Part shown: positions 8,200 through 47,110 of the stretch, piece by piece
How positions within the stretch are numbered: position 1 is the stretch's first letter
Layout: every line of letters begins with the position of its first letter
Source: an uncultured Eubacterium sp.
GTDB lineage: Bacteria; Bacillota; Clostridia; Lachnospirales; Lachnospiraceae
DNA: 47,727 nt
Assembly: GCA_947384955.1 (NCBI GenBank)
Contig: CANDJC010000023.1
Location: 1 to 47,727 of the forward strand
Reading direction: 5' to 3'
Notes under the pieces: generated by a model
Seen by the model: the letters and a program-made list of their open reading frames with translations, nothing else
Databases searched by the model: none
What the model was told of the DNA's origin: nothing
Translations under genes and position numbers: made by a program

Positions 8200-8292
8200 C
8201 CTAATCTCCTTCCAGGGAGGCGTGTTCTGCAAAAACGGTTATTCTTCTTTGCATGATTATAGCATACCCTTTGCAAAAAACAATACGGGAAA

Positions 8293-8331
8293 CGAAAAAA
8301 TGCGGCCTGTGCTGAAAACACAGACCTTTTT
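8293..8331 (-). terminator. Terminator at the end of the glycan locus
   Basis: Stem 8304-8311 with 8319-8326 (one mismatch, seven-base loop), followed on the minus strand by CGCATTTTTT and on the plus strand by TTTTT. It lies about 60-90 bases past the stop of the membrane acyltransferase, the last gene of the glycan locus. Confidence 0.6.
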
Positions 8332-8392
8332 AAACTGTTATGAAAAGCTGCCTGAAACAGACATTTATATAATAGATATGTATAATAGAAAA

Positions 8393-8912: not shown

Positions 8913-9534
8913 CTAGCGCATACAGGAAAATTCCGTTCAGCAGCGTACGCAGACTCGGAATCAGGCCGTCTGCCAGAGCGCCTGTCCATCCGAGCTGGAC
9001 AAAGGCAAAGAGGACAATTAAAAATGCAGTATAGTGCCTGTCATCGAGTTTTGCAAGAAAATCATTCAAGAAAAGAACCGCTGTCAGTATGACTGCAAAA
9101 TAATATCCTGCAAACCATGACATGGAATTAAAAGCCTGAATATTAGCTAAATTCAAAAATGTGCCGCGTTTCATGCAAAAACAGGCTGTTGAAGCAATGG
9201 TTAAAACTGCCGCCGCAAATCCCAGCTGGCCTAATAGTTTTTTAGATATTTTAACAAGATTAATATGTTTCCCTTTCGGAACCATAAAATAACCGGAAAT
9301 CAGGATGAAAATCACATTCCCGATAATGCCGAAGGTGTTCATCACATCCAGAATCAGGAGTTTTTTATAAAACAGCGGATGGTTAAATAAGCCGTTGTTC
9401 ATTCTATGAATCGAGTTCATGTCTGTAAGCTGTACATTTACACAGTGGCATACGATGTGGTAGAGTATAATCATGAACATTGCCACGCAGCGTAAAAGCT
9501 CGATATTTGAGTTTCTTTCTGTCTTTTGGGGCAT
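8899..9534 (-). CDS. Membrane acyltransferase (acyltransferase 3 / OafA-like), N-terminal part, phase-OFF
   Basis: Begins NSNIELLRCVAMFMIILYHI, with the R and H of the acyltransferase 3 family near the start of a multi-pass membrane protein. Such proteins O-acetylate or O-succinylate sugars of surface glycans. The ATG at 9534 has AAGGAACCTCCA before it. The frame is closed right after an 11-base G run (8903-8913): ...LYALGGGG then stop. The remaining helices follow in another frame at once. Position at the end of the glycan operon fits a tailoring role. I read this as a phase-variable gene in the OFF state; a fixed pseudogene or a homopolymer sequencing error is the alternative. Confidence 0.85.
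   Translation of the reverse strand: MPQKTERNSNIELLRCVAMFMIILYHIVCHCVNVQLTDMNSIHRMNNGLFNHPLFYKKLLILDVMNTFGIIGNVIFILISGYFMVPKGKHINLVKISKKLLGQLGFAAAVLTIASTACFCMKRGTFLNLANIQAFNSMSWFAGYYFAVILTAVLFLNDFLAKLDDRHYTAFLIVLFAFVQLGWTGALADGLIPSLRTLLNGIFLYALGGGG
8903..8913 (-). repeat. Poly-G11 tract inside the acyltransferase gene (putative phase-variation site)
   Basis: Eleven consecutive C on the plus strand. The minus-strand coding frame reads GCG CTA, then G11, then CTGAAC. With 11 G the frame ends at TGA immediately; with 12 or 9 G it reads through into CTG AAC AGA (Leu-Asn-Arg) and the rest of the protein. A run of this length is expected to slip during replication. Confidence 0.8.
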
Positions 9535-19026: not shown

Positions 19027-20157
19027 TTAAGTACCCAGCATCTTATTCATATTTTCAAATACTTCCTGCGGGCTGACAGCTTTCAGACATTTGTAATCTG
19101 TCCCATATTCACAGCGAAAATAAGAACACGGCTTACACGGCATGTCTTTTGATATCAGACATATTGTGCAGTTTCCGCGCGGTGTACCCATAACAGGCAG
19201 ATATGGTCCGTAAAGGACAATCACATCGATTCCCTGGGCTGCACATAAATGTCCGCAGCTGCTGTCATTGCAGATAACCATATCACACAGCCTTAAACTG
19301 TCTATATATTCCCGCAGACCTGTTTTTAATACCAGATAATTATTTTTCATTCCCCCGTATAAAACTATCTTATCGATACTGTCCGTACTACAGCCGTCGT
19401 CATACAAAACAAAAAAGACATCGTTCCTTCTTTCATTGCACAGCCTGACCAGTTTATGAAAATACGGCCATCGTTTCTGTGCTGTACTTGCACCACAGTG
19501 GATACCAATCACCCTGTACAAATCCAGATGATTTGCATGAATTATGCCGTTTTTGTGCTTTTCCCATGACTCCATTGGTTTAATACAGGGATAAATCAGT
19601 GTATGGTCAATTGTGCCTCCCAGCGTTTGGTACAGATACAGCATATTGTCTGTGATATGCCTGTCATCATTATAATGTGATGAAATGCTGTGCAGCCTGT
19701 AAAGATTGCCTATTCCAATACCTGCATAGGATTCTGCTCTGCATAATCTCATAAATACGGATGCAAAACACTCTCCAAACGGTTCTATTGCAATATCATA
19801 CTTTATCCTGTTAATTTTTTTCCTGGCTGCCGCTATCTCTTTCCTGTGCCGAAACCATTCCTTTCCGCTTACAGGACCGGCACATGTTCCAAAATCAACA
19901 AACTCATCGTATAATTCCTGGCCATTTAAAAAATCCCGGAAATAAGCCGGCCCGCAAACCGTTACGCGGACTTTAAACTGTGCCTTAAGATGCATAAGAA
20001 ACGGTATCGCCATCACACAGTCCCCGATACGCCGCGGATAAATAATCAGTATATTCTGGCCATCCTGAATACGGACTTTTTTCTTTTTACGGACAGGCAT
20101 GAGTATACCTGCTATATAAACAATTCGTTTATGTCTTTTACGCAGTATTCGATTCAT
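19027..20157 (-). CDS. Family 9 glycosyltransferase (heptosyltransferase-like)
   Basis: About 376 residues of GT-B fold. N-terminal NILIIYPRRIGDCVMAIPFL and C-terminal CDMVICNDSSCGHLCAAQG, the latter matching the donor-binding block of the ADP-heptose:LPS heptosyltransferase family, plus IGIHCGASTAQKRWP in the middle. The C-terminus is cysteine-rich (CKPCSYFRCEYGTDYKC), as in related clostridial proteins. It directly follows gmhA and hldE, which supply activated heptose, so heptose transfer is the natural inference. The ATG at 20157 lies six bases after the gmhA stop; a start 12 codons upstream lacks an RBS. Confidence 0.87.
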   Translation of the reverse strand: MNRILRKRHKRIVYIAGILMPVRKKKKVRIQDGQNILIIYPRRIGDCVMAIPFLMHLKAQFKVRVTVCGPAYFRDFLNGQELYDEFVDFGTCAGPVSGKEWFRHRKEIAAARKKINRIKYDIAIEPFGECFASVFMRLCRAESYAGIGIGNLYRLHSISSHYNDDRHITDNMLYLYQTLGGTIDHTLIYPCIKPMESWEKHKNGIIHANHLDLYRVIGIHCGASTAQKRWPYFHKLVRLCNERRNDVFFVLYDDGCSTDSIDKIVLYGGMKNNYLVLKTGLREYIDSLRLCDMVICNDSSCGHLCAAQGIDVIVLYGPYLPVMGTPRGNCTICLISKDMPCKPCSYFRCEYGTDYKCLKAVSPQEVFENMNKMLGT

Positions 20158-20162
20158 TTTAT

Positions 20163-20732
20163 CTATCCCATAGCTTCCTCTGTTAATTCGCATATAATAT
20201 GTATCATTGTGATATGGCTTTCCTGAATCCTGGCTGTAACATTGGAAGGCACAATCAAAGACTGGCTTACCATAGATTTGACTGCTCCCCCATCCTTTCC
20301 AAGCAGCGCTATGGTTTTACAGTTCGTATGTCCGACAGCAGAAATCGCTTTTATGAGGTTACGGCTGTTTCCGCTTGTGCTGATTCCTATAAAAACATCT
20401 CCGTCTCTGACAAACGCCTTTGCCTGCCTTGCATAAGCTTCTTCATAACCATAGTCATTCGAAATCGCCGTCAGTGTCGCCGGGTCTGCACCCAGTACAA
20501 CTGCCGGCCACGGTTCACGCTCTTTTTGGAACCTTCCTGTAATTTCTCCTGCAAAATGAAGGGAATCTGATTCAGAGCCTCCGTTCCCAGCCAGAACCAG
20601 TTTGCCTCCGTTTTTCAGACAGGCTGCAATCATATCCGCTGCTTTATGTATGCCCCTGATAAGCTCCCCGTCATCCATAATTCTTTTCTTCACTTCTATA
20701 CTGTCCTGCAGTCTCTGCTGAATGATATCCAT
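20163..20732 (-). CDS. gmhA: Phosphoheptose isomerase (sedoheptulose-7-phosphate isomerase)
   Basis: 189 residues from the ATG at 20732, which has GGGAGGAATGGG before it and overlaps the end of hldE; the open frame further upstream is read-through of hldE. SIS domain with AGNGGSESDSLHFAGEITGR, GADPATLTAISNDYGYE, GISTSGNSRN and the C-terminal ESHITMIHIICELTE, all typical of GmhA. It converts sedoheptulose 7-phosphate to D-glycero-D-manno-heptose 7-phosphate, the first committed step of nucleotide-activated heptose synthesis. Note AGNGGSESDS where AGNGGSAADA-type sequences are usual. Confidence 0.93.
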   Translation of the reverse strand: MDIIQQRLQDSIEVKKRIMDDGELIRGIHKAADMIAACLKNGGKLVLAGNGGSESDSLHFAGEITGRFQKEREPWPAVVLGADPATLTAISNDYGYEEAYARQAKAFVRDGDVFIGISTSGNSRNLIKAISAVGHTNCKTIALLGKDGGAVKSMVSQSLIVPSNVTARIQESHITMIHIICELTEEAMG

Positions 20733-20743
20733 CCCATTCCTCC

Positions 20744-22216
20744 CTACGGCAGCAGCTGGGACGATTCGTCCTGTAACCTGCCTTTTTCTATTTTTGCTAT
20801 CATCTGCGACGTGGATTTTCCATCCACATAAGGAATAATCTTTACGCACCCTCCTTTTTTTAATACAATATCTCTTCCAGCAACTTCATCAGGCGTGTAA
20901 TCTCCGCCTTTTACCAGAATGTCCGGCTCACAGGCTGCAACCGCTCTATATGGCGTATCCTCCTCAAAAATCACAATATAATCAATAAAATCATAGCAGG
21001 AAAGCATTTCAGCCCTTTCTTCCTCCTGATTAACAGGCCGTCCGGCTCCCTTAAGCCTTTGTACAGATGCATCACTATTTAAACCGACAATAAAAATATC
21101 ACCCATTTCCGATGCCTGTTTCAGATACCTTAAATGTCCGATATGAAGAATATCAAAACAGCCGTTTGTAAATACAATCTTTTTATCCTTATTTGCTTTT
21201 CGGTAATCCGAAAGCTCCTCTATACTGAGCAGTTTGCTATGCCCCCGTCTTTCAGATTTTCTGCTCAAAAAGTTTTCAACTTCACCGATTTGTACAGAAG
21301 AAGTCCCCGCTTTCGAAACCTGAATTCCCGCAGCAATATTCGCAGCTTCCATAGAATGCAGGATACTCATATCAGACGCAAGACACATTGCCATATATGC
21401 AATAACCGTATCCCCGGCTCCCGTTACGTCGTAAACTTCACGAGCCGTTGTTCCCAGTTTTCGATACACTCCATTCCCGTCTGTAAGAATCATACCCTGT
21501 GCGCCGCATGTAGCAAGAACATAACTGCTTTCACATCTCTTACACAAAGATACAGCTGCCGCTTTTATTTCATCCTCCGTTCTTACCGGCATCTTTGTAA
21601 GCCGTGCCAGTTCTCCCCGGTTTGGTTTAATCAGAAATGCCCCAAAATATTTACTGCTTCTTGAATCTTTCACATCAGCAAGTGTTTTTACCCCTTTTTT
21701 TCTGCAAATATCGAACAGTTTTCGGGATAAGTCATGCGACAGCACTCCCTTCTTATAATCTGAAACAACCACAATATCAAATTCAGATACATGTTTTTTG
21801 GCTGTTTCCAGCAGCCTGTCCTGGATGGCCGATTCCATATCAGCAGTTTCTTCTGTATCAATCCGGAGAACCTGCTGATTATTTCCGGCTAAAAGCCTTG
21901 TCTTGACAGATGTGGGCCTTTTTGCGCTAATCAGATAATTCACAGCAATATGGCTTTCCTGCAAAAGTGCCTTCAAAACGGCTCCGTTTTCATCTTCGCC
22001 GATAACTGACAAAACATTTACATTCTGTCCATTCACCGCCAGATTCAGGGCAACATTTGCCGCGCCGCCCAGCCTGTACTTTATTTCTTTTTTCAAAAAA
22101 ACAGGAACCGGGGCTTCCGGAGAAATTCTTTCGACTGTTCCCAGATAATACTGATCCAGCATAATATCTCCGACAACCAGTATTTTCTTTTCCTGTACTG
22201 CTCCCATCAAACTCAT
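20744..22216 (-). CDS. hldE: Bifunctional heptose-7-phosphate kinase / heptose-1-phosphate adenylyltransferase
   Basis: 490 residues. N-terminal ribokinase-type domain: KILVVGDIMLDQYYLG, SPEAPVPV, LGGAANVALNLA and the active-site DVTGAGDTV. C-terminal nucleotidyltransferase domain: IVFTNGCFDILHIGHLRYLK (HxGH motif) and VGLNSDASVQRLKG. Length and order match HldE (RfaE1 plus RfaE2). It makes ADP-heptose from heptose 7-phosphate, apart from the GmhB phosphatase step, which is not encoded here; no HldD epimerase is seen either. ADP-heptose is the activated sugar for the GT9 enzyme two genes downstream. Confidence 0.95.
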   Translation of the reverse strand: MSLMGAVQEKKILVVGDIMLDQYYLGTVERISPEAPVPVFLKKEIKYRLGGAANVALNLAVNGQNVNVLSVIGEDENGAVLKALLQESHIAVNYLISAKRPTSVKTRLLAGNNQQVLRIDTEETADMESAIQDRLLETAKKHVSEFDIVVVSDYKKGVLSHDLSRKLFDICRKKGVKTLADVKDSRSSKYFGAFLIKPNRGELARLTKMPVRTEDEIKAAAVSLCKRCESSYVLATCGAQGMILTDGNGVYRKLGTTAREVYDVTGAGDTVIAYMAMCLASDMSILHSMEAANIAAGIQVSKAGTSSVQIGEVENFLSRKSERRGHSKLLSIEELSDYRKANKDKKIVFTNGCFDILHIGHLRYLKQASEMGDIFIVGLNSDASVQRLKGAGRPVNQEEERAEMLSCYDFIDYIVIFEEDTPYRAVAACEPDILVKGGDYTPDEVAGRDIVLKKGGCVKIIPYVDGKSTSQMIAKIEKGRLQDESSQLLP

Positions 22217-36041: not shown

Positions 36042-36662
36042 TCATTTTATGCCACGTTTCCTGACTGCACCCACAGGGCAGTTTTCATAACAGTTTCCGC
36101 AGTGCAGGCAATGTTCCTTCTGGATAAAATAAGGCTTTCCCTGCATAATGCACTGCTGCGGACAGACGCGCTGACATTTTCCGCACCCGATACAGCTATC
36201 GGTTATAACATAACCTTTTTCAGAAATCGTTCTTGCGCCAAGCGTATAGCTTTCACGGAAAACAGGCTTTACACCAAGGTTAAAATATTCTATCTCTGCG
36301 TTCTTTATTTCGAAAATAATCCCGATTTTTCGGGTATCGCCCGGATAAACATTTGAGAGACTGGGCTGCTCTGCAAAAATCGTGTTGATTTTTTCTTCCT
36401 GTTCCGATTCGCGGGCAGGCTCAGCCTTTGCGGACAGCCGTATCATTTCTTTGAAACGGGTATAAGCGAGTATCTGCACTCTGCCGTCGGAAAGCAGTTC
36501 TTCGCAGAAGTTTTTTCCTCTCGCCGTGAAGAAATAAAAGCTGTCGCTGTCATAGTGAATTGCACTGATACAGCGAATCTGCGGATTCCCTTCGCTGTCA
36601 GCCGTTGCGAAGGACAAAACACCGACGAGTTTCAATTTTTCCATACAGGTTTTTGCGTCCAT
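36042..36662 (-). CDS. PPOX-fold flavin protein fused to a 2[4Fe-4S] ferredoxin domain
   Basis: About 206 residues. N-terminal pyridoxamine-phosphate-oxidase-like split barrel (KLVGVLSFATADSEGNPQIR, FYFFTARGKNFCEELL), which usually binds FMN. C-terminal ferredoxin domain with two CxxCxxCxxxC sites (CIGCGKCQRVCP, CLHCGNCYENCP). Such fusions shuttle electrons or reduce small molecules. ATG at 36662 follows AGAAAGGATGATGTAT. Last gene of the ACGX peptide locus; it could feed electrons to the radical SAM enzyme or act on the modified peptide, but no function is proven. Confidence 0.87.
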   Translation of the reverse strand: MDAKTCMEKLKLVGVLSFATADSEGNPQIRCISAIHYDSDSFYFFTARGKNFCEELLSDGRVQILAYTRFKEMIRLSAKAEPARESEQEEKINTIFAEQPSLSNVYPGDTRKIGIIFEIKNAEIEYFNLGVKPVFRESYTLGARTISEKGYVITDSCIGCGKCQRVCPQQCIMQGKPYFIQKEHCLHCGNCYENCPVGAVRKRGIK

Positions 36663-36682
36663 ATACATCATCCTTTCTGCTT

Positions 36683-37642
36683 TCAAATAGTGACAACAAT
36701 TTTTCCGTTTACGCATCCGCTGTCAAGAGCCGCACAGGCTTCCTTCATCCTGTCAAAGGTAAAAACTGCTCCGATGGCGGGTTTCAGGCTGTGATTGTCT
36801 AAAAACTCAAAAATATCCCGCATTATTTTTTCGGTCGGATAGTTGGAGAAAAATCCGGTGAGATATACCCCATTCGGAATATCCTTAATAGGATCAAAGC
36901 CGTTTAGTGTGTATACACCGCCTAAAATACCCGTGCTGCAGACGATTCCGCCTTTTTCCACACAGCAAAGCGTATCAGGCAGGGTTTTAGGGCCGACCAG
37001 TTCCAGCGCTTTTGTTATGCCGTTTAGCATATCAGACAGCTTTCCCGTATCAAGAACTGCTTTATCCGCCTGTGCGAGCAAAGGCAGCCTGCTTTGTTTA
37101 TGCGTTGTCGCAGTAACGGTGCAGCCAGCCGCTTTCGCAATCTGAATGGCTGCGCAGCCTAACGCACAGGTAGCGCCACGGATTAGTAATGTATCGTCTG
37201 GTTTCAGGCAGAGGCATTCAAAGAGCGAACCCCATGCCGTAAAGTATGTTTCCGGAACTGCTGCCATCTCCGTCCACGAAAGTTCGGATTCTACGGCAAA
37301 TACATGGTGAACGGGCAAAAGTGCATACTCTGCATAGCTTCCATGAAAGCTGCGTCCCATGCCTCCCATAAGAGCCACTACCCTTTGCCCGGCTGTAAAC
37401 CTGCTGTCCGAGGGGTCGGCTATCTCTCCAGCGCATTCAATACCGGGGATAATCGGTTTTTTGATATAATCTGCCCGGATTTCATTTAACCGCAAAATCT
37501 TCTCAGAGTGATTCATTCCGAATGCTTTTATTCTCACAAGTACCCAGCCGGGCTTTACTTTTGGAATGGGAATCCTGCAAAGCTCAGCATTTCCGGCTTC
37601 TGTCGGCCTGTCAAGCAAAACCGCTTTCATTGTCGTATTCAT
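36683..37642 (-). CDS. MDR-family NAD(P)-dependent oxidoreductase (quinone-reductase-like)
   Basis: 319 residues. GroES-like N-terminal domain (GWVLVRIKAFGMNHSEKILR, IIPGIECAGEI) and Rossmann domain (LLIRGATCALGCAAIQIAKA). The ligands of the catalytic and structural zinc sites are absent, as in quinone-reductase/enoyl-reductase members. It would use NAD(P)H to reduce a C=C or carbonyl. It lies nine bases after the radical SAM gene, RBS GAGGATACGCT, so it probably belongs to the same transcript; reduction of the modified peptide is one possibility. Confidence 0.88.
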   Translation of the reverse strand: MNTTMKAVLLDRPTEAGNAELCRIPIPKVKPGWVLVRIKAFGMNHSEKILRLNEIRADYIKKPIIPGIECAGEIADPSDSRFTAGQRVVALMGGMGRSFHGSYAEYALLPVHHVFAVESELSWTEMAAVPETYFTAWGSLFECLCLKPDDTLLIRGATCALGCAAIQIAKAAGCTVTATTHKQSRLPLLAQADKAVLDTGKLSDMLNGITKALELVGPKTLPDTLCCVEKGGIVCSTGILGGVYTLNGFDPIKDIPNGVYLTGFFSNYPTEKIMRDIFEFLDNHSLKPAIGAVFTFDRMKEACAALDSGCVNGKIVVTI

Positions 37643-37651
37643 AGCGTATCC

Positions 37652-38704
37652 TCACTTTCTGAACAAATCGCTGTTTTCATCTGCCCAGCACTGCGGATCG
37701 GCAGCATAAAAATCTCCGTTTGTGCCTTTTGCAACTGCGGGACAGCCGCGGCAATAGCCGAGCAGCCTGCATTTTGCGCATTTACGGAATTTTGTGTATT
37801 CCCGGTAGCGCTCCATTTTTGTTACCCATATATCGGCAAGGCGGCCGGTAAAGACATTTCCCACACAGCTTCCGGCTGCCCGGCGGCAGGCATAAACTTC
37901 TCCCGTGGGAAGAATGGTAATATGACAGTTTCCGCAGTTGCAGCCGCCATATATCATGCCGTCCTCTGCCGATGCCGGAATTTTGAATGCTCCGGTCTCA
38001 TATTCGTACAGCGTCCAAAGGTGGTCCTTTTTGTTAAAGCAGGTATCACAGCCCGCTGCTTCGTACTCTTTGAATTTCTTATCGCATACCGCAAGCAGGT
38101 CACGATATTCCTGCGGCGTCATGCCTGCATCAAGCTCGCCGCCGCCTGGAACATAACGGGAAAACGCATATATATTCACGCCTGCTTTTACAACTGCGTC
38201 TATAATACCGGGAACTTCCATACGATTTGTCCTGGAAACCGTCGTCATCGAGACGCTGCGGATTCCGGCACGGTTTATACAGCCGATTTTCTCAAGCGTA
38301 CAGTCATAAGAGCCGGGTTTTCGGAACCAGTCGTGTGTTTCACGCAGACCGTCGACTGACAGCTGATATTTCTCACAGCCGTATGCTTTCAGTTCACGGC
38401 ATACCTGATCGTTCAGATGAAAAGGATTTCCGAGAATGGTAAAAGGTACGCTGTGTTTCTGAAGCAGTTCCAGCAGCCTCCAAAAATCGGGGTGCAGAAT
38501 CGGGTCGCCGCCCGTAATATAAAAATAAGGCAGACGGTCATATACCTTGCAAAAATCAAGACAATTATAAAAAGTGTCCTGCATTTGCTGCCAGTTCATC
38601 GAATCTATTTTTTTGCAGGTGTCTCCTGAAAAAATGTAACAGTGCCTGCACCGCTGGTCGCATTCGTCTGTAATGTGCCATTGAAAAGAAAAATACTGCT
38701 TCAT
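37652..38704 (-). CDS. Radical SAM/SPASM peptide maturase (ACGX system type)
   Basis: 350 residues. Radical SAM cluster CDQRCRHC (Cys15, Cys19, Cys22), GGDP block (YFYITGGDPILHPDFW) and a C-terminal SPASM region rich in cysteines (GGCNCGNCH, CRRAAGSC, CAKCRLLGYCRGCP) able to bind extra 4Fe-4S clusters. SPASM enzymes install thioether or C-C crosslinks in ribosomal peptides. It follows the ACGX-repeat precursor by 108 bases. The pairing matches the named bioinformatic ACGX system (radical SAM plus ACGX-repeat target peptide). Sactionine-like Cys-to-alpha-carbon links are a guess from the cysteine-rich substrate. Confidence 0.92.
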   Translation of the reverse strand: MKQYFSFQWHITDECDQRCRHCYIFSGDTCKKIDSMNWQQMQDTFYNCLDFCKVYDRLPYFYITGGDPILHPDFWRLLELLQKHSVPFTILGNPFHLNDQVCRELKAYGCEKYQLSVDGLRETHDWFRKPGSYDCTLEKIGCINRAGIRSVSMTTVSRTNRMEVPGIIDAVVKAGVNIYAFSRYVPGGGELDAGMTPQEYRDLLAVCDKKFKEYEAAGCDTCFNKKDHLWTLYEYETGAFKIPASAEDGMIYGGCNCGNCHITILPTGEVYACRRAAGSCVGNVFTGRLADIWVTKMERYREYTKFRKCAKCRLLGYCRGCPAVAKGTNGDFYAADPQCWADENSDLFRK

Positions 38705-38763
38705 TCTGCATACCTCACTTTATATAAAAATCGGTTATACCGAGTCACAATCGAAATGTTCCC

Positions 38764-38781
38764 GGCGGGAGTGTTCCCGCC
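38764..38781 (-). promoter_or_regulatory. GC-rich hairpin between the precursor and maturase genes
   Basis: GGCGGGA (38764-38770) pairs with TCCCGCC (38775-38781) around a four-base loop. No T run follows on the minus strand, so it is not a classical terminator. It may partly stop transcription or stabilise the precursor mRNA, giving more peptide than enzyme. Confidence 0.5.
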
Positions 38782-38812
38782 AGAAACTGCTTTTTAACAG
38801 GGATGGAACGCT

Positions 38813-39046
38813 TTACCTGCCGCCAGCGCCACATGCAGAGCCGCATGCAGCAGGCTTTTCTTCCGGCTTGTCAGCCGCCCCGCATGCAGCAGGAGCTTCA
38901 GCAGGTTCTCCGCCAGCCCCGCATGCAGAACCGCACGCAGCAGGTTTTTCCTCCGGTCTGCCGCCAGCACCGCATGCAGAACCACACGCAGATGCAGGCG
39001 CATCCTCCATTTTCCTGTTCCATCCATACAGATTAGAAAGTGCCAT
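38813..39046 (-). CDS. ACGX-repeat RiPP precursor peptide
   Basis: 77 residues with an ideal RBS (GGAGGTCAAAATA). A short leader (MALSNLYGWNRKMEDAPAS) is followed by repeats of ACGS-ACGA-GG separated by charged spacers (RPEEKPA, EPAEAPA, DKPEEKPA). Seven cysteines at 21, 25, 38, 42, 55, 68 and 72, each in an Ala-Cys-Gly-X motif; the third unit has lost one copy. Composition (Ala, Gly, Cys, Pro, Glu) is wholly unlike the neighbours, and the coding DNA is repetitive. It is the predicted substrate of the radical SAM enzyme encoded next. No obvious protease cleavage site or exporter gene is seen nearby. Confidence 0.9.
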   Translation of the reverse strand: MALSNLYGWNRKMEDAPASACGSACGAGGRPEEKPAACGSACGAGGEPAEAPAACGAADKPEEKPAACGSACGAGGR

Positions 39047-39099
39047 TATTTTGACCTCCGTTTAAGTATTCAGTGGGTTTCTTTCCCTCTGTATCTATC

Positions 39100-39127
39100 A
39101 TTTTACTGGTTTTATTCCGCTCCACAA
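39100..39127 (-). promoter_or_regulatory. Candidate promoter of the ACGX peptide operon
   Basis: Minus strand TTGTGG (39122-39127), 16 bases, TAAAAT (39100-39105), about 50 bases before the precursor start. Immediately upstream lie three copies of a T-run/GTRAC motif listed separately. Confidence 0.5.
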
Positions 39128-39134
39128 GTACGCA

Positions 39135-39221
39135 CTTTTTTGTAACCCAGTTACCTTTTTGTGACCTTTGCGCAGTTACAGGGCTTGCGAGGCAAATAAA
39201 TTTTCTAATTTTTTTGTGACT
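39135..39221. promoter_or_regulatory. Repeated TTTTTGTRACC elements upstream of the ACGX promoter
   Basis: CTTTTTTGTAACC (39135-39147), CTTTTTGTGACC (39155-39166) and TTTTTTTGTGACT (39209-39221) on the plus strand, plus two direct CAGTTAC heptamers (39148 and 39173). Placement just upstream of a weak -35 suggests activator sites. The rest of the 39047-39552 gap shows no gene. Confidence 0.4.
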
Positions 39222-39552: not shown

Positions 39553-40845
39553 CTATTCCCCCTGCGGCCTTTTCACCATCACAGACACACCGTCCGGGAT
39601 TACTGCGATATGGGCATCCCTGCCCTTTTCTTTCAGAGCCGTCTGCAGCGCCTCGTTTACATCCGCTGCTGTTTCAAATCCCATTTCCCGCGCCATGCTG
39701 CGGTATTTTTCACACATGACATAAATGACTTTGTGATGTATCAGAATCCGGCTCTGAATCTGATATTCCCACTGGTCGGGTTTTGTTTCGTCCTGCGGAA
39801 CCTTTAGAATTTCTTCCATCAGCGCTTTCGGGCTTTCGCAGTCTTTTAAGGCATTGTAAAATCCCTCTCCGCCATGTCCGTCTCCGCAGTCTGATACCAT
39901 GATTAAAATTCCGCCTTCTTTCGACGCCGCTTCCGCAGCTGTCATGCCTTTGACAGACTGGTACATATTCTGGTCCAAAGGATAGCCGCCGTTTGTGGAA
40001 ATGGCAATGTCGGCCAGCTTTTTCGGCACTGCCTGGCAGTATTGTCGTAAGAACCGGCATCCGGCTTCATGTGCGGCTTCGGCATCTCCGGCTACTGCGT
40101 GAACGGCCTTTTTTTCGGAATCAATCACTACATTTACAATATATTTTAATTTTGCCATTCGGCCCGCGGCAGTCATATCCGTATGAATCGGATTGTTTTC
40201 AAGAATGCCCGTGCGGCTGTATGGCGAATCAATAAAAGCAGAACAGTGATTTCCAAGCACAGTCACCTTACTGGATACGCCTGGCAGCACGCTTTTGCGC
40301 CCGCCGGAAAATCCGGCAAAAAAATGTGTCTCGATAAATCCCTCGCTGACTAATAAATCTGCTTCGGCAGCCGTTTTATTGATTAATAGCGGGGCTCCGG
40401 AAGGAAGGATTCCAAGGTTTGCCATGGCGTCCATATCGCGGCTGTCATGTATCTGTATTTTTTCATTTTCAGCTATTTCTTCGCCGAATTTGCTGATTAG
40501 CTCTTCTTTCGTTGTCTGCCTGTGAAATCCGGTTGCAATCAAAAGCGTAATATCCGCGTCCGGACTGCCCTGTCTGATTTCTTTGAGCATAAACGGAATG
40601 ATATGCCTGCTTGGCACAGGTCTTGTATGGTCCGAACAGATAATGACTACACGCTTTTTCCCCTTAGAAAGTTCCGAAAGCCTTGGAGAATGAATCGGGT
40701 GCGCCATCGCATCCAGCACAATTTCATCCTCGCTCTTTCCGCTTTTGGGCATTGACTCAATCGCGGATTCCAGAATTTCGTAATCCAGCGAATCATCTAA
40801 ATGCAGCGTCATTCCATCTTTGGAATAGGGCAGCCTGATATCCAT
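39553..40845 (-). CDS. larA: LarA-family nickel-dependent lactate racemase (DUF2088)
   Basis: About 430 residues. Family blocks visible: VVIICSDHTRPVPSRHIIPF, LLIATGFHR, and SEGFIETHFFAGFSGGRKSV followed by LPGV...NH, which carry the histidines and the lysine that bind the nickel-pincer cofactor in LarA. It would interconvert L- and D-lactate so that both reach the FAD dehydrogenase. Cofactor genes larB, larC and larE are not in the window. ATG at 40845 follows GAGGTGAATTTT. Other LarA homologues racemise different 2-hydroxy acids; the operon points to lactate. Confidence 0.87.
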   Translation of the reverse strand: MDIRLPYSKDGMTLHLDDSLDYEILESAIESMPKSGKSEDEIVLDAMAHPIHSPRLSELSKGKKRVVIICSDHTRPVPSRHIIPFMLKEIRQGSPDADITLLIATGFHRQTTKEELISKFGEEIAENEKIQIHDSRDMDAMANLGILPSGAPLLINKTAAEADLLVSEGFIETHFFAGFSGGRKSVLPGVSSKVTVLGNHCSAFIDSPYSRTGILENNPIHTDMTAAGRMAKLKYIVNVVIDSEKKAVHAVAGDAEAAHEAGCRFLRQYCQAVPKKLADIAISTNGGYPLDQNMYQSVKGMTAAEAASKEGGILIMVSDCGDGHGGEGFYNALKDCESPKALMEEILKVPQDETKPDQWEYQIQSRILIHHKVIYVMCEKYRSMAREMGFETAADVNEALQTALKEKGRDAHIAVIPDGVSVMVKRPQGE

Positions 40846-40899
40846 AAAATTCACCTCGATTCAAACAGTGTGATTCAGCACTCATCGATTCAGACAGTA

Positions 40900-42042
40900 T
40901 TATTTCACGCCCATCCATCCGGCAATGACCATCATCTGTACTTCGGATGTGCCTTCATAAATTTCTGTAATCTTTGCATCACGCATCATGCGCTCGATTG
41001 GATAATCTTTGGTATATCCGTATCCGCCGTATAACTGCAGACAGCGGCGTGTCACATCCGATGCATTCCTGGAAGCCACTAATTTAGCCATTGCTGCTTT
41101 ATGCGAAAATGCCTCATGGTCGTCTTTTGCACATGCAGCCTGATATACGAGAAGCTTTGCTGCTTCGGTATTTGCACGCATCTGCGCCAGCTCAAACTGT
41201 GTATTCTGGAACTGGGAAAGGCGGCGTCCGAACTGCTTTCTTTCCTGAACGTATTTTACAGTTTCTTCAATCGCGCCTTCCGCAATGCCGGCCGCCTGGG
41301 CTGCAATGCCGACGCGTCCGCCATCCAGAGTCATCATTGCATACTTAAAGCCTTTTCCAGGCTCGCCGACCAGATTTTCCTTCGGCACGATGCAGTCTTC
41401 AAAAATCAGTTCGCAGGTGGAAGAAGCGCGGATGCCCATTTTATCCTCCAGTTTTCCGATTTTAAATCCCTCAAACCCTTTTTCGATAATAAATGCTGAA
41501 ATTCCTTTTGTGCCCTGAGACTTATCGGTCATAGCAAGTACGAAAAATACATCTGCCACACCCGCATTCGTAATAAAGATTTTCGAGCCGTTTAATACCC
41601 AGTGGTCCCCGGCGTCCACTGCGACTGTCTGCTGGCCGGAAGCGTCTGTGCCCGCATTTGCCTCTGTCAGTGCAAATGCGCCAATCCATTCGCCGGAGCA
41701 TAATTTCGGCAGATACTTCTGCTTCTGTTCTTCGGAGCCGAACTGGTAAATCGGCGTGCAGCATAACGATGTATGAGCCGAAACGATAACGCCTGTTGTC
41801 GCGCAGTATTTGCTTAATTCCTCTACGGTCTGGATATAAGCCAGCGTATCCATGCCGGAACCGCCGTATTCTTCCGGGAACGGAATTCCAAGCAGCCCCA
41901 TCTCCGCCATCTGCTTTACATTTTTCATAGGGAATTCTTCTGTCCTGTCAATTTCTGCTGCAAGCGGTTTAACCTCGTTTACGGCAAATTCATGTACCAT
42001 GTCTAAGATATCCTGATGAAATTCATCCTGCTTAAAATCCAT
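40900..42042 (-). CDS. Acyl-CoA dehydrogenase (short-chain/butyryl-CoA type)
   Basis: 380 residues with the full family pattern: FPEEYGGSGMDTLAYIQTVE, FALTEANAGTDASGQQT, SKIFITNAG, QLYGGYGYTKDYPIERMMRD and the catalytic glutamate in ITEIYEGTSEVQ. FAD enzyme that desaturates acyl-CoA or, with Etf, reduces crotonyl-CoA or acrylyl-CoA. Its place inside a lactate-Etf operon is noteworthy, because the core lactate operon of acetogens lacks it. RBS CAGGAGGAAATAAAGC. Could provide the electron outlet of lactate oxidation in a butyrate or propionate producer. Confidence 0.93.
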   Translation of the reverse strand: MDFKQDEFHQDILDMVHEFAVNEVKPLAAEIDRTEEFPMKNVKQMAEMGLLGIPFPEEYGGSGMDTLAYIQTVEELSKYCATTGVIVSAHTSLCCTPIYQFGSEEQKQKYLPKLCSGEWIGAFALTEANAGTDASGQQTVAVDAGDHWVLNGSKIFITNAGVADVFFVLAMTDKSQGTKGISAFIIEKGFEGFKIGKLEDKMGIRASSTCELIFEDCIVPKENLVGEPGKGFKYAMMTLDGGRVGIAAQAAGIAEGAIEETVKYVQERKQFGRRLSQFQNTQFELAQMRANTEAAKLLVYQAACAKDDHEAFSHKAAMAKLVASRNASDVTRRCLQLYGGYGYTKDYPIERMMRDAKITEIYEGTSEVQMMVIAGWMGVK

Positions 42043-42099
42043 GCTTTATTTCCTCCTGTTTAAAATCTGTTATCTTTGCTGCCTGTTATGAAAACCGTA

Positions 42100-42157
42100 T
42101 TCTCTGCAGAATAAGCTGCCACAGCTGAGTCTTTTTTAGTCTTAATTCCGCAGAGAA
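42100..42157 (-). promoter_or_regulatory. Hairpin in the EtfA-acyl-CoA dehydrogenase intergenic gap
   Basis: 42100-42112 pairs with 42145-42157 (12 of 13 bases, TTCTCTGC/GCAGAGAA) around a 32-base loop that contains an A-rich stretch. No T run follows. In a 144-base gap where the other operon gaps are 13-72 bases, it may be a processing or stability element. Confidence 0.4.
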
Positions 42158-42186
42158 ACGGCTGTTCACATCTGTAATTCTGCCAT

Positions 42187-43194
42187 TTATGCCTTGCGTG
42201 CCCTAAAAGCTGCGGTCAGTGCAGGCACCACTTCATTCAGATTTCCTACAATTCCATAATCTGCCGCCTCAAAAATCGGTGCGTCCGGATCTTTATTGAC
42301 AGCAATCACCGTATCGGAACCGGAGATGCCTGCCAGATGCTGGATAGCGCCTGAGATGCCGATTGCAAAATACAGCTTCGGAGCTACGGTTTTGCCGGAC
42401 TGGCCGACCTGATGCGCGTGCGGCATCCATCCCGCATCGACTACGGCACGGCTGCATCCAACGGTTGCGCCCAGTTCCGCGGCCAGTTCTTCTAACATCC
42501 GAAAGCCTTCTGCCGAACCTACGCCGCGGCCGCCGGAAACAATGATTTCTGCTTCTTCCAGATTCACGGCCTGCGCTACTTCATTCACGCGCTCAGCCAG
42601 CCTTGTATGAATTTCTTCCGGCGCTGTATGGATTTCTTCTCTGATAATCTCACCGCTGCGGCTTTTATCATAAGCGCCTTTTTTAAATACGCCGGGCCTT
42701 ACTGTGCCCATCTGCGGGCGGCTGTCCGGGCACATAATGACTGCCATGAGATTGCCGCCGAATGTCGGACGGGTCCATGCGATGTTTCCGGTTTCCTCAT
42801 CCACGCCAATCGCTGTACAGTCCGCCGTCAGCCCGGTTTTCAGCCTGCAGGATACTCTCGGCCCTAAATCTCTTCCGTTATTGGTAGCTCCGAGCATCAG
42901 TGTTTCCGGTTTGTATTTTTCTACAAGCGCCGTCATGGCCTTTGCAAATGCGTCCGTTGTATAATACTCATATTCCGGCCCGTCTGCGATAATGGCGGAA
43001 TCTGCTCCGTAACAAATCGCATCCTTTGCCACGCCTTCAATATCTTTTCCGATGACAACTGCCACAAGCTGACAGTTTTTTTGCTCTGCGAGCGGTTTTG
43101 CTGCGTGAATCAGCTCGTAGCCGACATTTTTCGCCTTGCCGCACTCCGTTTCAATGAATACCCAGATATTTTTATAATCATTCAGATTGCTCAT
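42187..43194 (-). CDS. etfA: Electron transfer flavoprotein subunit alpha
   Basis: 335 residues. N-terminal half with the adenine-nucleotide fold ([20 protein letters not shown]), C-terminal FAD domain with [40 protein letters not shown] and [20 protein letters not shown] followed by NKDPDAPIF. Forms the Etf heterodimer with the product of the preceding gene and couples the FAD lactate dehydrogenase to other carriers. RBS AAGGAGGGGCAGGTT. Confidence 0.96.
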
Positions 43195-43207
43195 AACCTG
43201 CCCCTCC

Positions 43208-44011
43208 TTATAAAAGCTTTGCTTCTTCCAGCAGTTTTACGACTTCTTCTGCCGCGTCTCTGCCTTCCATGCCTGTTAATTTGACACCGTTTTTCTCACG
43301 GACCGGCGTAAATGTCTTTTTCACTCTTGTCGGAGAGCCTTTCAGCCCGCACAATGCCAGTTCAATTGCCGGAATATCTTCTTCCGTCAGTACCGGTATC
43401 TCTTTTTTCTTGGCAGCCATTTTGCTCTTAATGGTAGGATAGCGCGGCTCGTAAGGCAGCTTTACAACCGTTACAACTGCCGGGAGCTTCGCAGAAATGA
43501 TATCATATCCTGCATCATGCTCCCGCTTTACCTGAATTTCCCCGTCCTTTTCTGTAATGTCCAGGGCATATGTAATCTGCGGCAGGCCCAGATGTTCTGC
43601 AATTTCAGGTCCGACTTGTGCTGTATCTCCGTCTGTAGCCTGTTTGCCGCATAAAATCAGGTCAAACTGAAATCCTTCTTTTTCTTCCACAGCCTTAATT
43701 GCTTCCGAAAGAATATAGCTGGTAGCCAGCGTATCAGAGCCGCCAAAATTTCTGCTTGAAATCAGATATCCGCTGTCCGCGCCGACGGCCAGACATGATT
43801 TGACTGCTTCCTTTGCCTGTTCCGGCCCCATGGATATTACAATCAGCTTTCCGCCCGTTTTTTCTTTCAGCCTTACCCCTGCTTCCTGGGCATAGGTATC
43901 AAACGGGTTTACGATGCTCGGCACGCCCTTTCTGATAAGCGTATGTGTTTCCGGGTCGATTTTAATTTCATTCGTATCAGGCACCTGCTTTATGCAAACA
44001 CAAATATTCAT
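43208..44011 (-). CDS. etfB: Electron transfer flavoprotein subunit beta
   Basis: 267 residues. ICVCIKQVPDTNEIKIDPET, PFDTYAQEAGVRLKEKTGG, LILCGKQATDGDTAQVGPEI and PYEPRYPTIKSKMAAKKKEI are the usual blocks. In lactate operons of anaerobes this EtfB can bind a second FAD and take part in confurcation, driving lactate oxidation with NAD by using reduced ferredoxin. That activity is inferred from the operon type, not from a residue I can single out. RBS TAGGAGGAAATCATT. Confidence 0.95.
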   Translation of the reverse strand: MNICVCIKQVPDTNEIKIDPETHTLIRKGVPSIVNPFDTYAQEAGVRLKEKTGGKLIVISMGPEQAKEAVKSCLAVGADSGYLISSRNFGGSDTLATSYILSEAIKAVEEKEGFQFDLILCGKQATDGDTAQVGPEIAEHLGLPQITYALDITEKDGEIQVKREHDAGYDIISAKLPAVVTVVKLPYEPRYPTIKSKMAAKKKEIPVLTEEDIPAIELALCGLKGSPTRVKKTFTPVREKNGVKLTGMEGRDAAEEVVKLLEEAKLL

Positions 44012-44046
44012 AATGATTTCCTCCTAATTTTTATTCACCATGCTGT

Positions 44047-45459
44047 TTATAAACAATAACATACCTTGCCCGGATTCAGAATCATCTTCGGGTCAAATAC
44101 ACGCTTGATTCCTTCCATAATAGCCATGTTTGTTTTTCCGACAGATTCTGTCAGATATTTTACTTTGCCCATGCCAATGCCATGCTCGCCGGAAACAAGC
44201 CCGCCGCAGTCTGTTGCTTCCTTATATATAATGTCAAAGAATTTATCCACGCGTTTTTTAAATTCCTCTTCTTCTAAGTCATTCGAACACTGGTAAATAT
44301 GCAGGTTTCCGTCTCCGGCATGGCCAAACGACTTGATTTCCAGCCCGCATTCTTTCCCGGCCTTATTGACAAATTCCAGATAATCCGCAATCTTATTCAC
44401 CGGTACAACGACGTCGCATTCATCTAACAGCTTCGTTTCTTCCATAATGGCTTCTAAGAACGAAGACCTTGCCGCCCATGCGTCTTTCATCTTAGACGGC
44501 GTATCCGCGACAAGCACGTCAATCGCGCCTGCTTCTACTACAAGCTCCGCCGCCTGTTCCACCAGCGAATCCACTTCATCTTCCGAATTGCCGTCTAACG
44601 TTACAAGCAGATATGCGCCGATTTGTATGCCTTCGAGTTCCTGAGGGAATACGGACTTTCCGATATAGCGCTCGGATGCGAGTACAATTTCCCGCTCCAT
44701 AAATTCAATCGCCTGAGGCTCCATATGTGCCATTTTAAATTTCGGAACCGCTGCAAGCGCTGTATGGAGGTCTTCAAACGGAATAATCAAAGAAGCCGCA
44801 GCCTTTGGAGCCGGTATGATTTTTAACGTCAGTTCTGTAATAATTCCAAGCGTTCCTTCCGAACCAGTCATCAGATTCAAAAGGGAATAGCCGGACGATG
44901 TTTTCGAAACCGTAGCTCCGAAGCGCGTAATCTCTCCTGTAGGCAGCACGACTGTCATTGCCCGTACATAGTCACGGGTTGCGCCGTATTTGACCGCACG
45001 CATGCCGCCGGCATTTGTCGCCACATTTCCGCCCACACATGCAAACTTTTCACCCGGGTCTGGCGGATAAAGCATTCCTTTTGTCAGACAGTCTTCCGCA
45101 AGGTCATTTAACAGAACGCCCGCTTCAATTTCCACTACAAAATTTTCCAAGTCGTAAGACTTAATTTTGTTCATTTTGGAAATATCGATTAAAACGCCTC
45201 CGCAGACCGGAACCGCGCCGCCTGCAAGCCCTGTCCCGGCTCCTCTCGGCGTGACCGGAATATTGTTGTCATAGCAGATTTTCATAATCTTTGACACTTC
45301 CTGCGTCGAGCGCGGCTGTACGGCTAAATCCGGCATACGCGTTCCATAAATCGGCATCTCGTCTTTTGCATAGTCCGGATTGATGTCTTCTCCCAAAAAG
45401 ACATATTCCGAAGCTGCCTGAATCTGTTCGATAATTTCTGGTGTCAGCTGATTGTACAT
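44047..45459 (-). CDS. lctD: FAD-linked lactate dehydrogenase (GlcD/LctD type)
   Basis: 470 residues. FAD-binding type 4 domain: VTPRGAGTGLAGGAVPVCGG, YPPDPGEKFACVGGNVATNA and GSEGTLGIITELTLKIIP; C-terminal cap with FGHAGDGNLHIY, VSGEHGIGMGKVKYL and FDPKMILNPGKVC. Oxidises D-lactate (or glycolate) to pyruvate and passes electrons to Etf, whose genes follow 35 bases later. In Acetobacterium-type systems the LctD-EtfAB complex confurcates electrons to NAD. The symbol rests on operon context; glcD is the alternative name. Confidence 0.9.
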   Translation of the reverse strand: MYNQLTPEIIEQIQAASEYVFLGEDINPDYAKDEMPIYGTRMPDLAVQPRSTQEVSKIMKICYDNNIPVTPRGAGTGLAGGAVPVCGGVLIDISKMNKIKSYDLENFVVEIEAGVLLNDLAEDCLTKGMLYPPDPGEKFACVGGNVATNAGGMRAVKYGATRDYVRAMTVVLPTGEITRFGATVSKTSSGYSLLNLMTGSEGTLGIITELTLKIIPAPKAAASLIIPFEDLHTALAAVPKFKMAHMEPQAIEFMEREIVLASERYIGKSVFPQELEGIQIGAYLLVTLDGNSEDEVDSLVEQAAELVVEAGAIDVLVADTPSKMKDAWAARSSFLEAIMEETKLLDECDVVVPVNKIADYLEFVNKAGKECGLEIKSFGHAGDGNLHIYQCSNDLEEEEFKKRVDKFFDIIYKEATDCGGLVSGEHGIGMGKVKYLTESVGKTNMAIMEGIKRVFDPKMILNPGKVCYCL

Positions 45460-45531
45460 TTTGTAACCTCCTTAAATCCCAGCCCTGCGGCATCCTGCGC
45501 ATACGGGCATTTTACATATATCTGATATTTG

Positions 45532-47076
45532 TTATAAACCCAGACAGGCCCCTGCATAGCAGATAATGCCTGCCAAAATTACATAGAATAGAAAGAACTT
45601 CAATACTGCACTCAGTATTCTGCTCTCAGACCCGACCGCGCCAATCGCTCCGGCTCCGATTGCAATTCCCTGCGGACAAATCATCTTGCCGATACCGGCC
45701 CCCATTACATTTGCCGCCGCCATCCATGACGCATCCAGGCCAAGCGCCGCGGCTGTCTCACTCTGCAGACCGCCGAACAGCACACAGGTCGATGTACCGG
45801 AGCCTGTGACAAACGCTCCGAGTGCTCCTATCAAAGGCGCAATGAACGGATAAAACGAGCCTGTCACTGCTACAAGAAATTTAGCAATATCTGAAATCAT
45901 TCCGCTGTAGCTCATAATCTTTGCCGCCGCCATAACCGAGCAGATTGTAAGCACGGTTTTCCAGTATTTTTTAACTGTTTCCACAAATACAGATACCATA
46001 TCTGAAACCGCGGCTCCCTGTATGCATCCTCCGATAAGCGCTGCTGCCAGAATCATAACTCCCGGCGTATTAATCCAGCTGAAACTGAGCGCATTCCCGC
46101 CTTCCCCGGCATAGACCGTCACAGTGCTTTTTATCCCTGCAATCGCCTGATGTACCGGCGGGCACAGTGTAGAAGTAAAAATCAGCAGGAGAAATATGAG
46201 CAGAAAAGAACTCCATGCCTTTAAGCCGTCTGCGGCGCTTATCGTTTCATTTCCTCCTTTTTCACCGGATTCAATCGCATATGCTTCATCCGGTTCTTTG
46301 TTAAAAATCTTAGCCGCTGCTATCATGCATCCCATAGAACAAATCGAGCCAATGATATCCGGCAGCTCCGGTCCGATAAAGCGCGCTGTTAAAAACCACG
46401 GTACGGTAAATGAAAGCGACGCTGTAAGTGTCATCGGCAGCATTCCTTTTAAAGCCTTTATCCCTTTCCCGCAGATACAGACCATCAAAAACGGCGAAAG
46501 AAATGTCAGAATAAACTGAATCAGCACCACATCTCCAGACAGCGCAAGCAGCTCTGTACCTGTTACGGATGCCAGCGTAACCGTCGGCACTCCGACCGAG
46601 CCAAATGCAGTCGGCGTGGAATTTACCACAAGACAGCCAAGCACCGCACGCACAGGGTCTAATCCAATCCCCGCTAACATGGATGCCGGAATTGCCACCG
46701 CTGTTCCAAACCCGGCCATTCCTTCCATAAAATTTCCAAATCCCCAGCCAATCATCAGAGCCAGCACTCTTTTATCTCTTGAAACTGTGGCAAGCATTTT
46801 TTTAATCAAATCCATTGCCCCGGTTTTCAGCGTCAGATTGTAAGTAAACAGGGCCGCTATAATGACCAGGCAAATCGGCCACAGCGCATTCAAAACCCCT
46901 TCCAGTGCGGCTGTCACGGTACACAGAGCGCTTAATTTCCAGTAACCGGCCGCTAACACCATCGTAAGCAGCATCGCAGTTACACACGCCTTATGCCCCG
47001 CCATCTTTAAGCCGCTTAATGCTGCAATCAGCCAGATAATCGGCAGCATCGCCAGCAAAAATTTTAAAAACAGCAA
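45532..47076 (-). CDS. lctP: Lactate permease (LctP/LldP family)
   Basis: About 514 residues, 12 or more membrane helices. FMEGMAGFGTAVAIPASMLA, LGCLVVNSTPTAFGSVGVPT, GALGAFVTGSGTSTCVLFGG and the C-terminal NVMGAGIGKMICPQGIAIGA are characteristic of the lactate/proton symporter family. First gene of the lactate operon. Start uncertain: TTG at 47076 has GGGGAGAGTA before it; the longest frame begins at a TTG inside an operator (47109), and an ATG at 47049 lacks an RBS. Confidence 0.93.
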   Translation of the reverse strand: MLFLKFLLAMLPIIWLIAALSGLKMAGHKACVTAMLLTMVLAAGYWKLSALCTVTAALEGVLNALWPICLVIIAALFTYNLTLKTGAMDLIKKMLATVSRDKRVLALMIGWGFGNFMEGMAGFGTAVAIPASMLAGIGLDPVRAVLGCLVVNSTPTAFGSVGVPTVTLASVTGTELLALSGDVVLIQFILTFLSPFLMVCICGKGIKALKGMLPMTLTASLSFTVPWFLTARFIGPELPDIIGSICSMGCMIAAAKIFNKEPDEAYAIESGEKGGNETISAADGLKAWSSFLLIFLLLIFTSTLCPPVHQAIAGIKSTVTVYAGEGGNALSFSWINTPGVMILAAALIGGCIQGAAVSDMVSVFVETVKKYWKTVLTICSVMAAAKIMSYSGMISDIAKFLVAVTGSFYPFIAPLIGALGAFVTGSGTSTCVLFGGLQSETAAALGLDASWMAAANVMGAGIGKMICPQGIAIGAGAIGAVGSESRILSAVLKFFLFYVILAGIICYAGACLGL

Positions 47077-47095
47077 TACTCTCCCCGCCTTTCGA

Positions 47096-47110
47096 ATTGG
47101 ATTACCCAAT
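47096..47110. promoter_or_regulatory. Lactate operon operator O1
   Basis: ATTGGATTACCCAAT, one base off the perfect palindrome of the other two sites. It lies about 90-105 bases into the transcript, just before the permease start. Confidence 0.65.

Follow-up and report, generated by a model that had tools for sequence, protein, structure and literature searches.

The stretch of DNA that concerns us here, 47,727 nucleotides of a contig (CANDJC010000023.1) from an uncultured gut Eubacterium sp., which as a whole we call the window, carries a gene for a peptide with seven Ala-Cys-Gly motifs, a gene for a radical SAM/SPASM maturase and two genes for redox proteins. Together they are almost certainly a member of the named ACGX system of ribosomally synthesized and posttranslationally modified peptides (RiPPs). 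What might such a peptide be for? Comparison with its relatives suggests that it acts inside the cell, as one element of a thiol-stress response that is at times tied to the ADP-ribosylation of proteins, and that it is not an exported antibiotic. That ACGX loci belong to a stress regulon we think likely; the fuller proposal, in which the product is an unexported peptide with several thioether bridges, induced by thiol or electrophile stress, strikes us as an even bet.

The system itself has already been named, and genome surveys alone have revealed it until now. What is new is its context: an operator, a divergent HxlR gene and a link to SirTM and Zn-macrodomain proteins, all of which an earlier sequence-only reading of the window missed because they lie upstream or in the relatives. 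Among open-licence papers (a weak kind of absence), we found none that names the ACGX system or its TIGR numbers and none that joins SirTM with radical SAM enzymes.

The Locus and Its Family

In order of transcription, the features are these:

39125..39165, minus strand: operator of tandem direct repeats, half-sites 39153-39164 and 39134-39145, 19 bp apart (pair search in the window and relatives)
39122..39127, minus strand: -35 element TTGTGG, overlapping the operator end (read from sequence)
39100..39105, minus strand: -10 element TAAAAT, 16-bp spacer (read from sequence)
39055-39059, minus strand: GGAGG ahead of the peptide gene (read from sequence)
38813..39046, minus strand: ACGX precursor peptide, 77 aa, seven ACG motifs, N terminus MALSNLYGW kept across the family (TIGR04341, 63.3 bits against a cut-off of 28)
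38759..38786, minus strand: RNA hairpin between the peptide and maturase genes (fold z -3.8)
37652..38704, minus strand: radical SAM/SPASM maturase, 350 aa, seven C-terminal cluster cysteines (TIGR04340)
36683..37642, minus strand: MDR-family (quinone oxidoreductase-like) reductase, 319 aa (PF08240, PF00107)
36042..36716, minus strand: PNPOx-like domain fused to 4Fe-4S ferredoxin motifs, 224 aa (PF01243 and Fer4, two stretches)

The sequence-only reading had described 36042-39046 as four genes on one strand, with the peptide gene nearest the promoter and with an MDR reductase and a PPOX-ferredoxin fusion at the far end, and in all of this it was right. The list of open reading frames (ORFs) gives the same coordinates in the order peptide, radical SAM enzyme, MDR and PNPOx-ferredoxin, the second gene beginning 108 bp after the first; promoter, GGAGG and conserved operator lie just upstream of the peptide gene; and Pfam finds the MDR, PNPOx and Fer4 domains. 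Its assignment to the ACGX system is likewise borne out by the NCBIfam models: the peptide passes TIGR04341, the enzyme scores 576.8 bits on TIGR04340 (cut-off 400), and because both lie well over their cut-offs the locus is no chance resemblance.

A contig scan found 528 relatives of the enzyme, of which the best 80 (77-91% identical) were retained. By their titles, these loci are mostly from metagenome-assembled genomes of Clostridia-type bacteria, many of them from animal guts (L031 is titled as a strain); the genomes are related, and counts from them are not independent. To find neighbors, reference proteins were run by tblastn on the 80 loci, and neighborhood fractions refer to the loci with more than 1.3 kb upstream (64) or more than 7 kb downstream (46). 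Of the 80 loci, 73 have an ORF for a peptide with three or more ACG motifs; among the seven that lack one, six have less than 340 bp ahead of the radical SAM gene, and L045 is the exception. The co-occurrence of peptide and enzyme that the earlier reading had predicted holds among 61 genomes (the window's own and 60 relatives), where the peptide model matches in 7, an over-cut-off enzyme is found in 7 and 6 genomes have both; G027 has such an enzyme without a peptide match. Across 295 genomes of the order, the enzyme exceeds the TIGR04340 cut-off in 18. One locus is a remnant: at about 7174-7469 of contig C90 in G001 (L146), a short peptide match stands beside roughly the last fifth of the enzyme, with a stop.

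A Shared Operator and a Divergent HxlR Gene

If these loci answer to stress, what throws the switch? We looked for pairs of TTAYAAAAARGT half-sites, with 16-26 bp between them and no more than two mismatches in either, in the 72 regions for which 210 bp or more of upstream sequence was available. The pair occurs in 60 of these regions, with a spacing of 19 or 20 in 58 of the 60; shuffled regions average 0.15 (20 rounds), a difference that flatters our case, the motif having been derived from the very regions counted and the shuffles being uncorrected for that. The second half-site runs into GTGCGTACTTG and the TTG of the -35 element, so that the operator overlaps the -35 box, and from there a -10-like hexamer follows at 16 or 17 bp in 62 of the 65 counted. 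As a genome-wide mark of a regulon the operator was rejected: at up to three mismatches, the window genome holds a single site and the reversed control also one. Loci with SirTM only have weak copies, with two or three mismatches per half-site.

The likely reader of this operator is close by. At 58 of the 64 ACGX loci with enough flank, a divergent HxlR gene lies within 1.4 kb upstream, and the 49 proteins examined (fewer than the 70 tblastn hits in the loci) all have Cys-Pro or Cys-Ser before a GxKW motif; 12 of the 14 sequences inspected have that one cysteine only. From its position, an HxlR-family regulator probably binds the tandem repeat. Excerpts of a paper on this family (PMC6943732) describe HypR, YodB and CatR as sensing HOCl, quinones and diamide through N-terminal cysteines, and place the nitroreductase YodC among the detoxifying enzymes controlled. 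Farther along, the intergenic hairpin recurs, the z of the fold falling below -2 at 63 of the 74 loci; it may set an excess of peptide over maturase.

Redox Neighbors: Cargo or Partners?

On the same strand within 7 kb downstream, a PNPOx-ferredoxin gene is found at 38 of the 46 full-flank loci, a nitroreductase at 22, an MDR at 16 and a ferredoxin-nitroreductase at 5. The sequence-only reading had expected both of the window's redox proteins to be conserved partners: the PNPOx-ferredoxin does recur, but the MDR is in a minority. The neighbor families are, by Pfam, PF01638 (HxlR), PF01661 (macro), PF00881 (nitroreductase) and PF08902 (DUF1848), and hits elsewhere in the 80 loci are few (5 HxlR, 2 SirTM, 2 macro and 2 nitroreductase). 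The nitroreductases are of several kinds, since most match the reference at only about 26% identity.

The control was a set of 35 loci with SirTM but no ACGX and with 4 kb or more of upstream flank: 13 of them have an HxlR gene nearby, 14 a PNPOx-ferredoxin gene and 31 a macrodomain gene, and such relatives suggest stress cargo. With hits counted from 150 aa upward (80 for HxlR), PNPOx-ferredoxins at ACGX loci are 53-100% identical to the reference, itself from an ACGX locus (median 70, n=56), and those at SirTM-only loci 27-44% (median 38, n=21); the HxlR medians are 80% and 57%. The closer kinship on the ACGX side suggests a partner dedicated to ACGX, and the idea that these neighbors are mere cargo was weakened by it. 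HxlR, PNPOx-ferredoxin and SirTM/macro genes thus recur jointly as a redox-stress toolkit, of which ACGX loci own a branch.

How far, then, should one follow the sequence-only reading, which took the PNPOx-ferredoxin (and the MDR) for dedicated electron donors to the radical SAM enzyme or reducers of its product? A protein that carries 4Fe-4S motifs, is the commonest downstream neighbor and stands nearer the reference at ACGX loci than elsewhere would suit the part. With a reference taken from an ACGX locus, however, closeness may only mirror kinship; the MDR, moreover, is present at a minority of loci, and more distant PNPOx-ferredoxins adjoin SirTM where there is no ACGX. Such a donor role seems to us rather unlikely. 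It is compatible with a stress-induced peptide, and both can hold; the PNPOx-ferredoxin may be stress cargo or electron donor. At one locus, L182 (G270), an HxlR that shares 85% identity with its ACGX-side counterpart precedes ferredoxin-nitroreductase, PNPOx-ferredoxin, nitroreductase and SirTM; the stretch fetched there contains no ACGX match.

Peptide, Maturase and Likely Chemistry

The seven Ala-Cys-Gly motifs do fall into 17-residue units, as first described, and each unit is the sum of a 4- and a 13-residue Cys-Cys spacing, the two commonest spacings among 74 family peptides. (Duplicates L002 and L003 were removed, the oddly ending L048, L063, L068, L073 and L074 were kept, and L001 and L062, without a MAL start, were dropped from one comparison.) In this set the N-terminal MAL... 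leader is conserved, and glycine directly follows 482 of 488 cysteines. Another cysteine stands at +4 after 164 of the 488, about one third of family cysteines belonging to Cys-X3-Cys; of the remaining 324, 297 have an acid at +4 (257 Asp and 40 Glu). L031, the closest fetched relative of the window copy, has Asp at all its +4 sites. Even where the neighboring radical SAM enzyme is only 49% identical, at L154, the peptide carries CGTAD, CGTKD and CGTKD, without CGSACG. That locus (G066) offers a second, simpler ACGX-like precursor in a divergent relative: a 59-aa ORF at about 7063-7242 with three CGTxD motifs, a radical SAM gene at 7321-8343 and an MDR alongside.

The maturase looks the part. 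CX3CX2C (C15, C19 and C22) and seven C-terminal cysteines (C255, C273, C309, C312, C318, C321 and C339) are invariant in 28 aligned sequences, the window enzyme among them, and PF13186 is matched at 32.5 bits (cut-off 21.5), as in a SPASM radical SAM enzyme. Nor does the enzyme fall into another, characterized family, an outcome that would have told against the earlier reading: TIGR04340 is passed, and the scores for SbtM and PapB lie below their cut-offs. PapB, according to excerpts of PMC9413430, links Cys with Asp or Glu within Cys-X3-Asp/Glu motifs, and from the conserved acids we lean slightly toward Cys-X3-acid thioethers in ACGX peptides as well. The sequence-only reading had gone farther and crosslinked every ACGX cysteine. 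A thioether-type modification is plausible; that every cysteine takes part is doubtful, given those with cysteine at +4 and the acids of the window peptide.

Several results weigh against a thioether-bridged peptide of the thiol-stress response, and they are best told together. The operator is present at the window promoter and the regulator adjacent in relatives, but no HxlR gene lies beside the window locus, the nearest in its genome (contig C82) being 54% identical. In Bacillus subtilis, the link of HxlR itself is to aldehydes and not to thiol stress; the excerpts of PMC6943732 describe it as more specific to aldehydes. The window peptide has Asp at one of its four such +4 sites and Gly at the other three, and the window enzyme is under purifying selection (ratio of nonsynonymous to synonymous rates, dN/dS, 0.077-0.091 against four relatives) despite the acid-site loss; the CGAGG peptide end is present in L160 and L161 too. 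For these reasons the +4 acid may not be essential: either acceptor sites may have begun to disappear from the window copy only recently, or the acid may be dispensable. Then, the window enzyme scores 60.3 bits on the PapB model NF047865 (cut-off 340), less than the 145.7 that it scores on the SbtM model TIGR04082 (cut-off 350). Its structure model (predicted local distance difference test, pLDDT, 91) has CteB, anSME, SuiB, ChlB and SkfB as nearest folds, a match that fails to separate thioether makers from anSME. Finally, there is no recognizable ACGX peptide at L142 (G027), where the radical SAM enzyme (8210-9223) exceeds the TIGR04340 cut-off; downstream of it is a 69-aa ORF whose tail is rich in Ser and Cys. 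The window copy is, in any case, a reduced version of the ACGX locus, since it has no local HxlR, SirTM or macrodomain gene and Gly at three of the four acidic sites.

Might the enzyme do something else altogether and yield a Cys-Gly ladder that binds metals or electrophiles? It could form an alpha-carbon thioether, for example, or the thio(seleno)oxazole that the SbtM annotation names. SbtM comes second among NCBIfam models for the window enzyme and for the five distant relatives scanned, glycine follows nearly every cysteine, and three acid sites are gone from the window peptide. Yet the SbtM scores are far under the cut-off, and chemistry on Cys-Gly would have no need of the +4 acid that the family, L154 included, so largely retains. 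We consider this unlikely.

SirTM and the Zn-Macrodomain

The link to ADP-ribosylation comes from the relatives, in which SirTM lies on the same strand within 7 kb downstream at 32 of the 46 full-flank loci and a Zn-macrodomain gene at 31. The best PDB match of the SirTM is 5a3a (E 2.2e-71), and a Pfam scan of it gave no match; the macrodomain protein matches 8rsi best (E 2.4e-82) and scores 370.2 bits on NF003163, protein-ADP-ribose hydrolase (cut-off 272). At E 1e-60, the 295 genomes include 21 with the radical SAM enzyme, 72 with SirTM and 11 with both, or SirTM in 11 of 21 ACGX genomes versus 61 of 274 others (Fisher odds ratio 3.8 and p 0.006, a value weakened by genome kinship). In six of the 11, the two genes share a contig and lie within 5 kb; in a seventh genome, G316, the end of a contig comes between them. 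The SirTM tree, which has 100 rows and leaves out pieces of up to 200 aa or with a stop, needs 13 changes of ACGX label (shuffled mean, 33), and starred branches force at least 4; the link has thus been made or lost several times. A single origin is not seen: ACGX-linked SirTMs form no one group.

Passages of two papers give GcvH-L as the one SirTM target known so far, and in excerpts of one (PMC11490716) targets of SirTM/Zn-Macro outside the GcvH-L operon remain elusive. Among 14 ACGX genomes, GcvH has no match in 8, a long match in 2 (G009 and G186) and a partial one in 4, and five of those without it have SirTM (G000, G008, G010, G130 and G301). The window gave no tblastn match to SirTM or the Zn-macrodomain; its genome, listed as 95.88% complete, has a SirTM/macro pair on contig C58 and a broken SirTM on C223, and no match to GcvH. 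At L199, L201 and L204, HxlR and PNPOx-ferredoxin genes directly precede SirTM and macro follows, the reverse of the usual macro-SirTM order.

It is tempting to suppose that the mature ACGX peptide takes the place of lipoyl-GcvH-L as the target that SirTM would ADP-ribosylate and the Zn-macrodomain restore, a redox carrier switched by ADP-ribose. The frequent adjacency, the excess of SirTM in ACGX genomes and the missing GcvH all point that way. On the other side, many SirTM/macro pairs have no ACGX nearby, some ACGX genomes (G053, for example) have no SirTM match, the window genome keeps its SirTM on a different contig from the ACGX locus, and the SirTM tree does not group the ACGX-linked genes. 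Retention of the +4 acid for SirTM modification was considered and rejected: Asp is kept at 19 of 21 non-CX3C cysteines (a manual count) in seven ACGX genomes without a SirTM match (G053, G089, G207, G210, G250, G266 and G274). We find the switched carrier quite unlikely, and a shade more doubtful the full statement, in which the ACGX peptides of gut Clostridia, induced by stress and bridged by thioethers, act inside the cell as redox peptides, are substrates of SirTM and the Zn-macrodomain and replace lipoyl-GcvH-L. If true, it would mean a RiPP under reversible ADP-ribose control.

Discussion

How might the parts work together? An HxlR/YodB-type repressor with its conserved N-terminal cysteine probably sits on the tandem repeat over the -35 element and would let go under thiol or electrophile stress. 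The operon would then yield more peptide than maturase, if the hairpin has the role we give it. The radical SAM/SPASM enzyme, having presumably recognized the MALSNLxGW leader, would join the Cys of each CGxx(D/E) motif to the acid four places on, much as PapB does, and the first Cys of each CGSACG pair may remain a free thiol. Gene order suggests that the product remains intracellular, a thiol- or redox-active peptide acting with PNPOx-ferredoxin, nitroreductase or MDR and that, in many relatives, it may also work with SirTM/Zn-macrodomain ADP-ribosylation.

Many radical SAM RiPPs are exported, and ABC ATPase genes lie near some of the loci (9 genes, 8 of 86 loci); but a bacteriocin or signaling ranthipeptide is very unlikely here, as the regulator and cargo are of a stress type and, by eye, no exporter or protease cluster among the 40 largest neighbor clusters occurs in more than 8 of 86 loci. 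The absence of a nearby exporter or protease, already remarked on in the sequence-only reading, is confirmed for the ORFs within about 6 kb, whose translations were read by eye.

The survey gives ACGX peptides a role that can be tested, that of a RiPP in a thiol-stress regulon instead of an exported weapon. It also makes them concrete candidate targets for SirTM/Zn-Macro pairs outside the GcvH-L operon, and their repeats could serve as a substrate for making peptides with multiple thioether rings.

Other Genes in the Window

Upstream of the ACGX promoter, 39553-47109 holds a lactate-use cluster, with LarA identified by NCBIfam NF033504 and with ORFs that we take to be acyl-CoA dehydrogenase, EtfBA, D-lactate dehydrogenase and lactate permease. 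A glycan cluster includes, at 19027-22216, what are presumably an HldE-type kinase/nucleotidyltransferase, a GmhA-type isomerase and a heptosyltransferase. An ABC-transporter-like ORF (14128-15867) is likewise part of a glycan cluster, some 20 kb from the ACGX locus. Between 31449 and 34561, a P-loop ATPase-like ORF is followed by a TPR-repeat-like one (both by eye); next to them Pfam identifies a GntR/FCD regulator.

Comparison with Known Systems

The window locus resembles other members of the ACGX system (TIGR04340/TIGR04341) in passing both models, in having the peptide gene precede the maturase gene and in its repeat and leader; it differs in the three glycines at its four +4 sites and in lacking the HxlR, Zn-macro and SirTM of most full-flank relatives, partners that the NCBIfam entries seen do not name. 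SCIFF is the substrate of the thioether maturase CteB. With that enzyme (PDB 5wgg/5why) the ACGX maturase shares 18% identity, and anSME, SuiB, ChlB and SkfB come within about 2 Z. The PapA/PapB ranthipeptide pair is alike in its Cys-X3-Asp/Glu repeats and radical SAM maturase, so far as the excerpts of PMC9413430 describe it, but the ACGX maturase is far under the PapB cut-off (60.3 of 340 bits), about a third of ACGX cysteines are in Cys-X3-Cys, and the context is one of HxlR and stress.

The extended SirTM operon of Lactobacillales and Staphylococcaceae consists of GcvH-L, LplA, Zn-Macro, SirTM, OYE and LLM, and ACGX relatives likewise have SirTM and Zn-Macro adjoining redox enzymes. By eye, however, no GcvH-L or LplA appears among the 40 largest ACGX neighbor clusters (86 loci); the ACGX loci carry instead a Cys-repeat RiPP with nitroreductase, MDR or PNPOx-ferredoxin, and at the window locus SirTM is absent. 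The YodB/CatR/HypR/HxlR (DUF24) regulons of B. subtilis share with ACGX loci a Cys-dependent regulator family that controls YodC and other flavoenzymes; they differ in that the excerpts of PMC6943732 mention no RiPP and make HxlR the more aldehyde-specific member.

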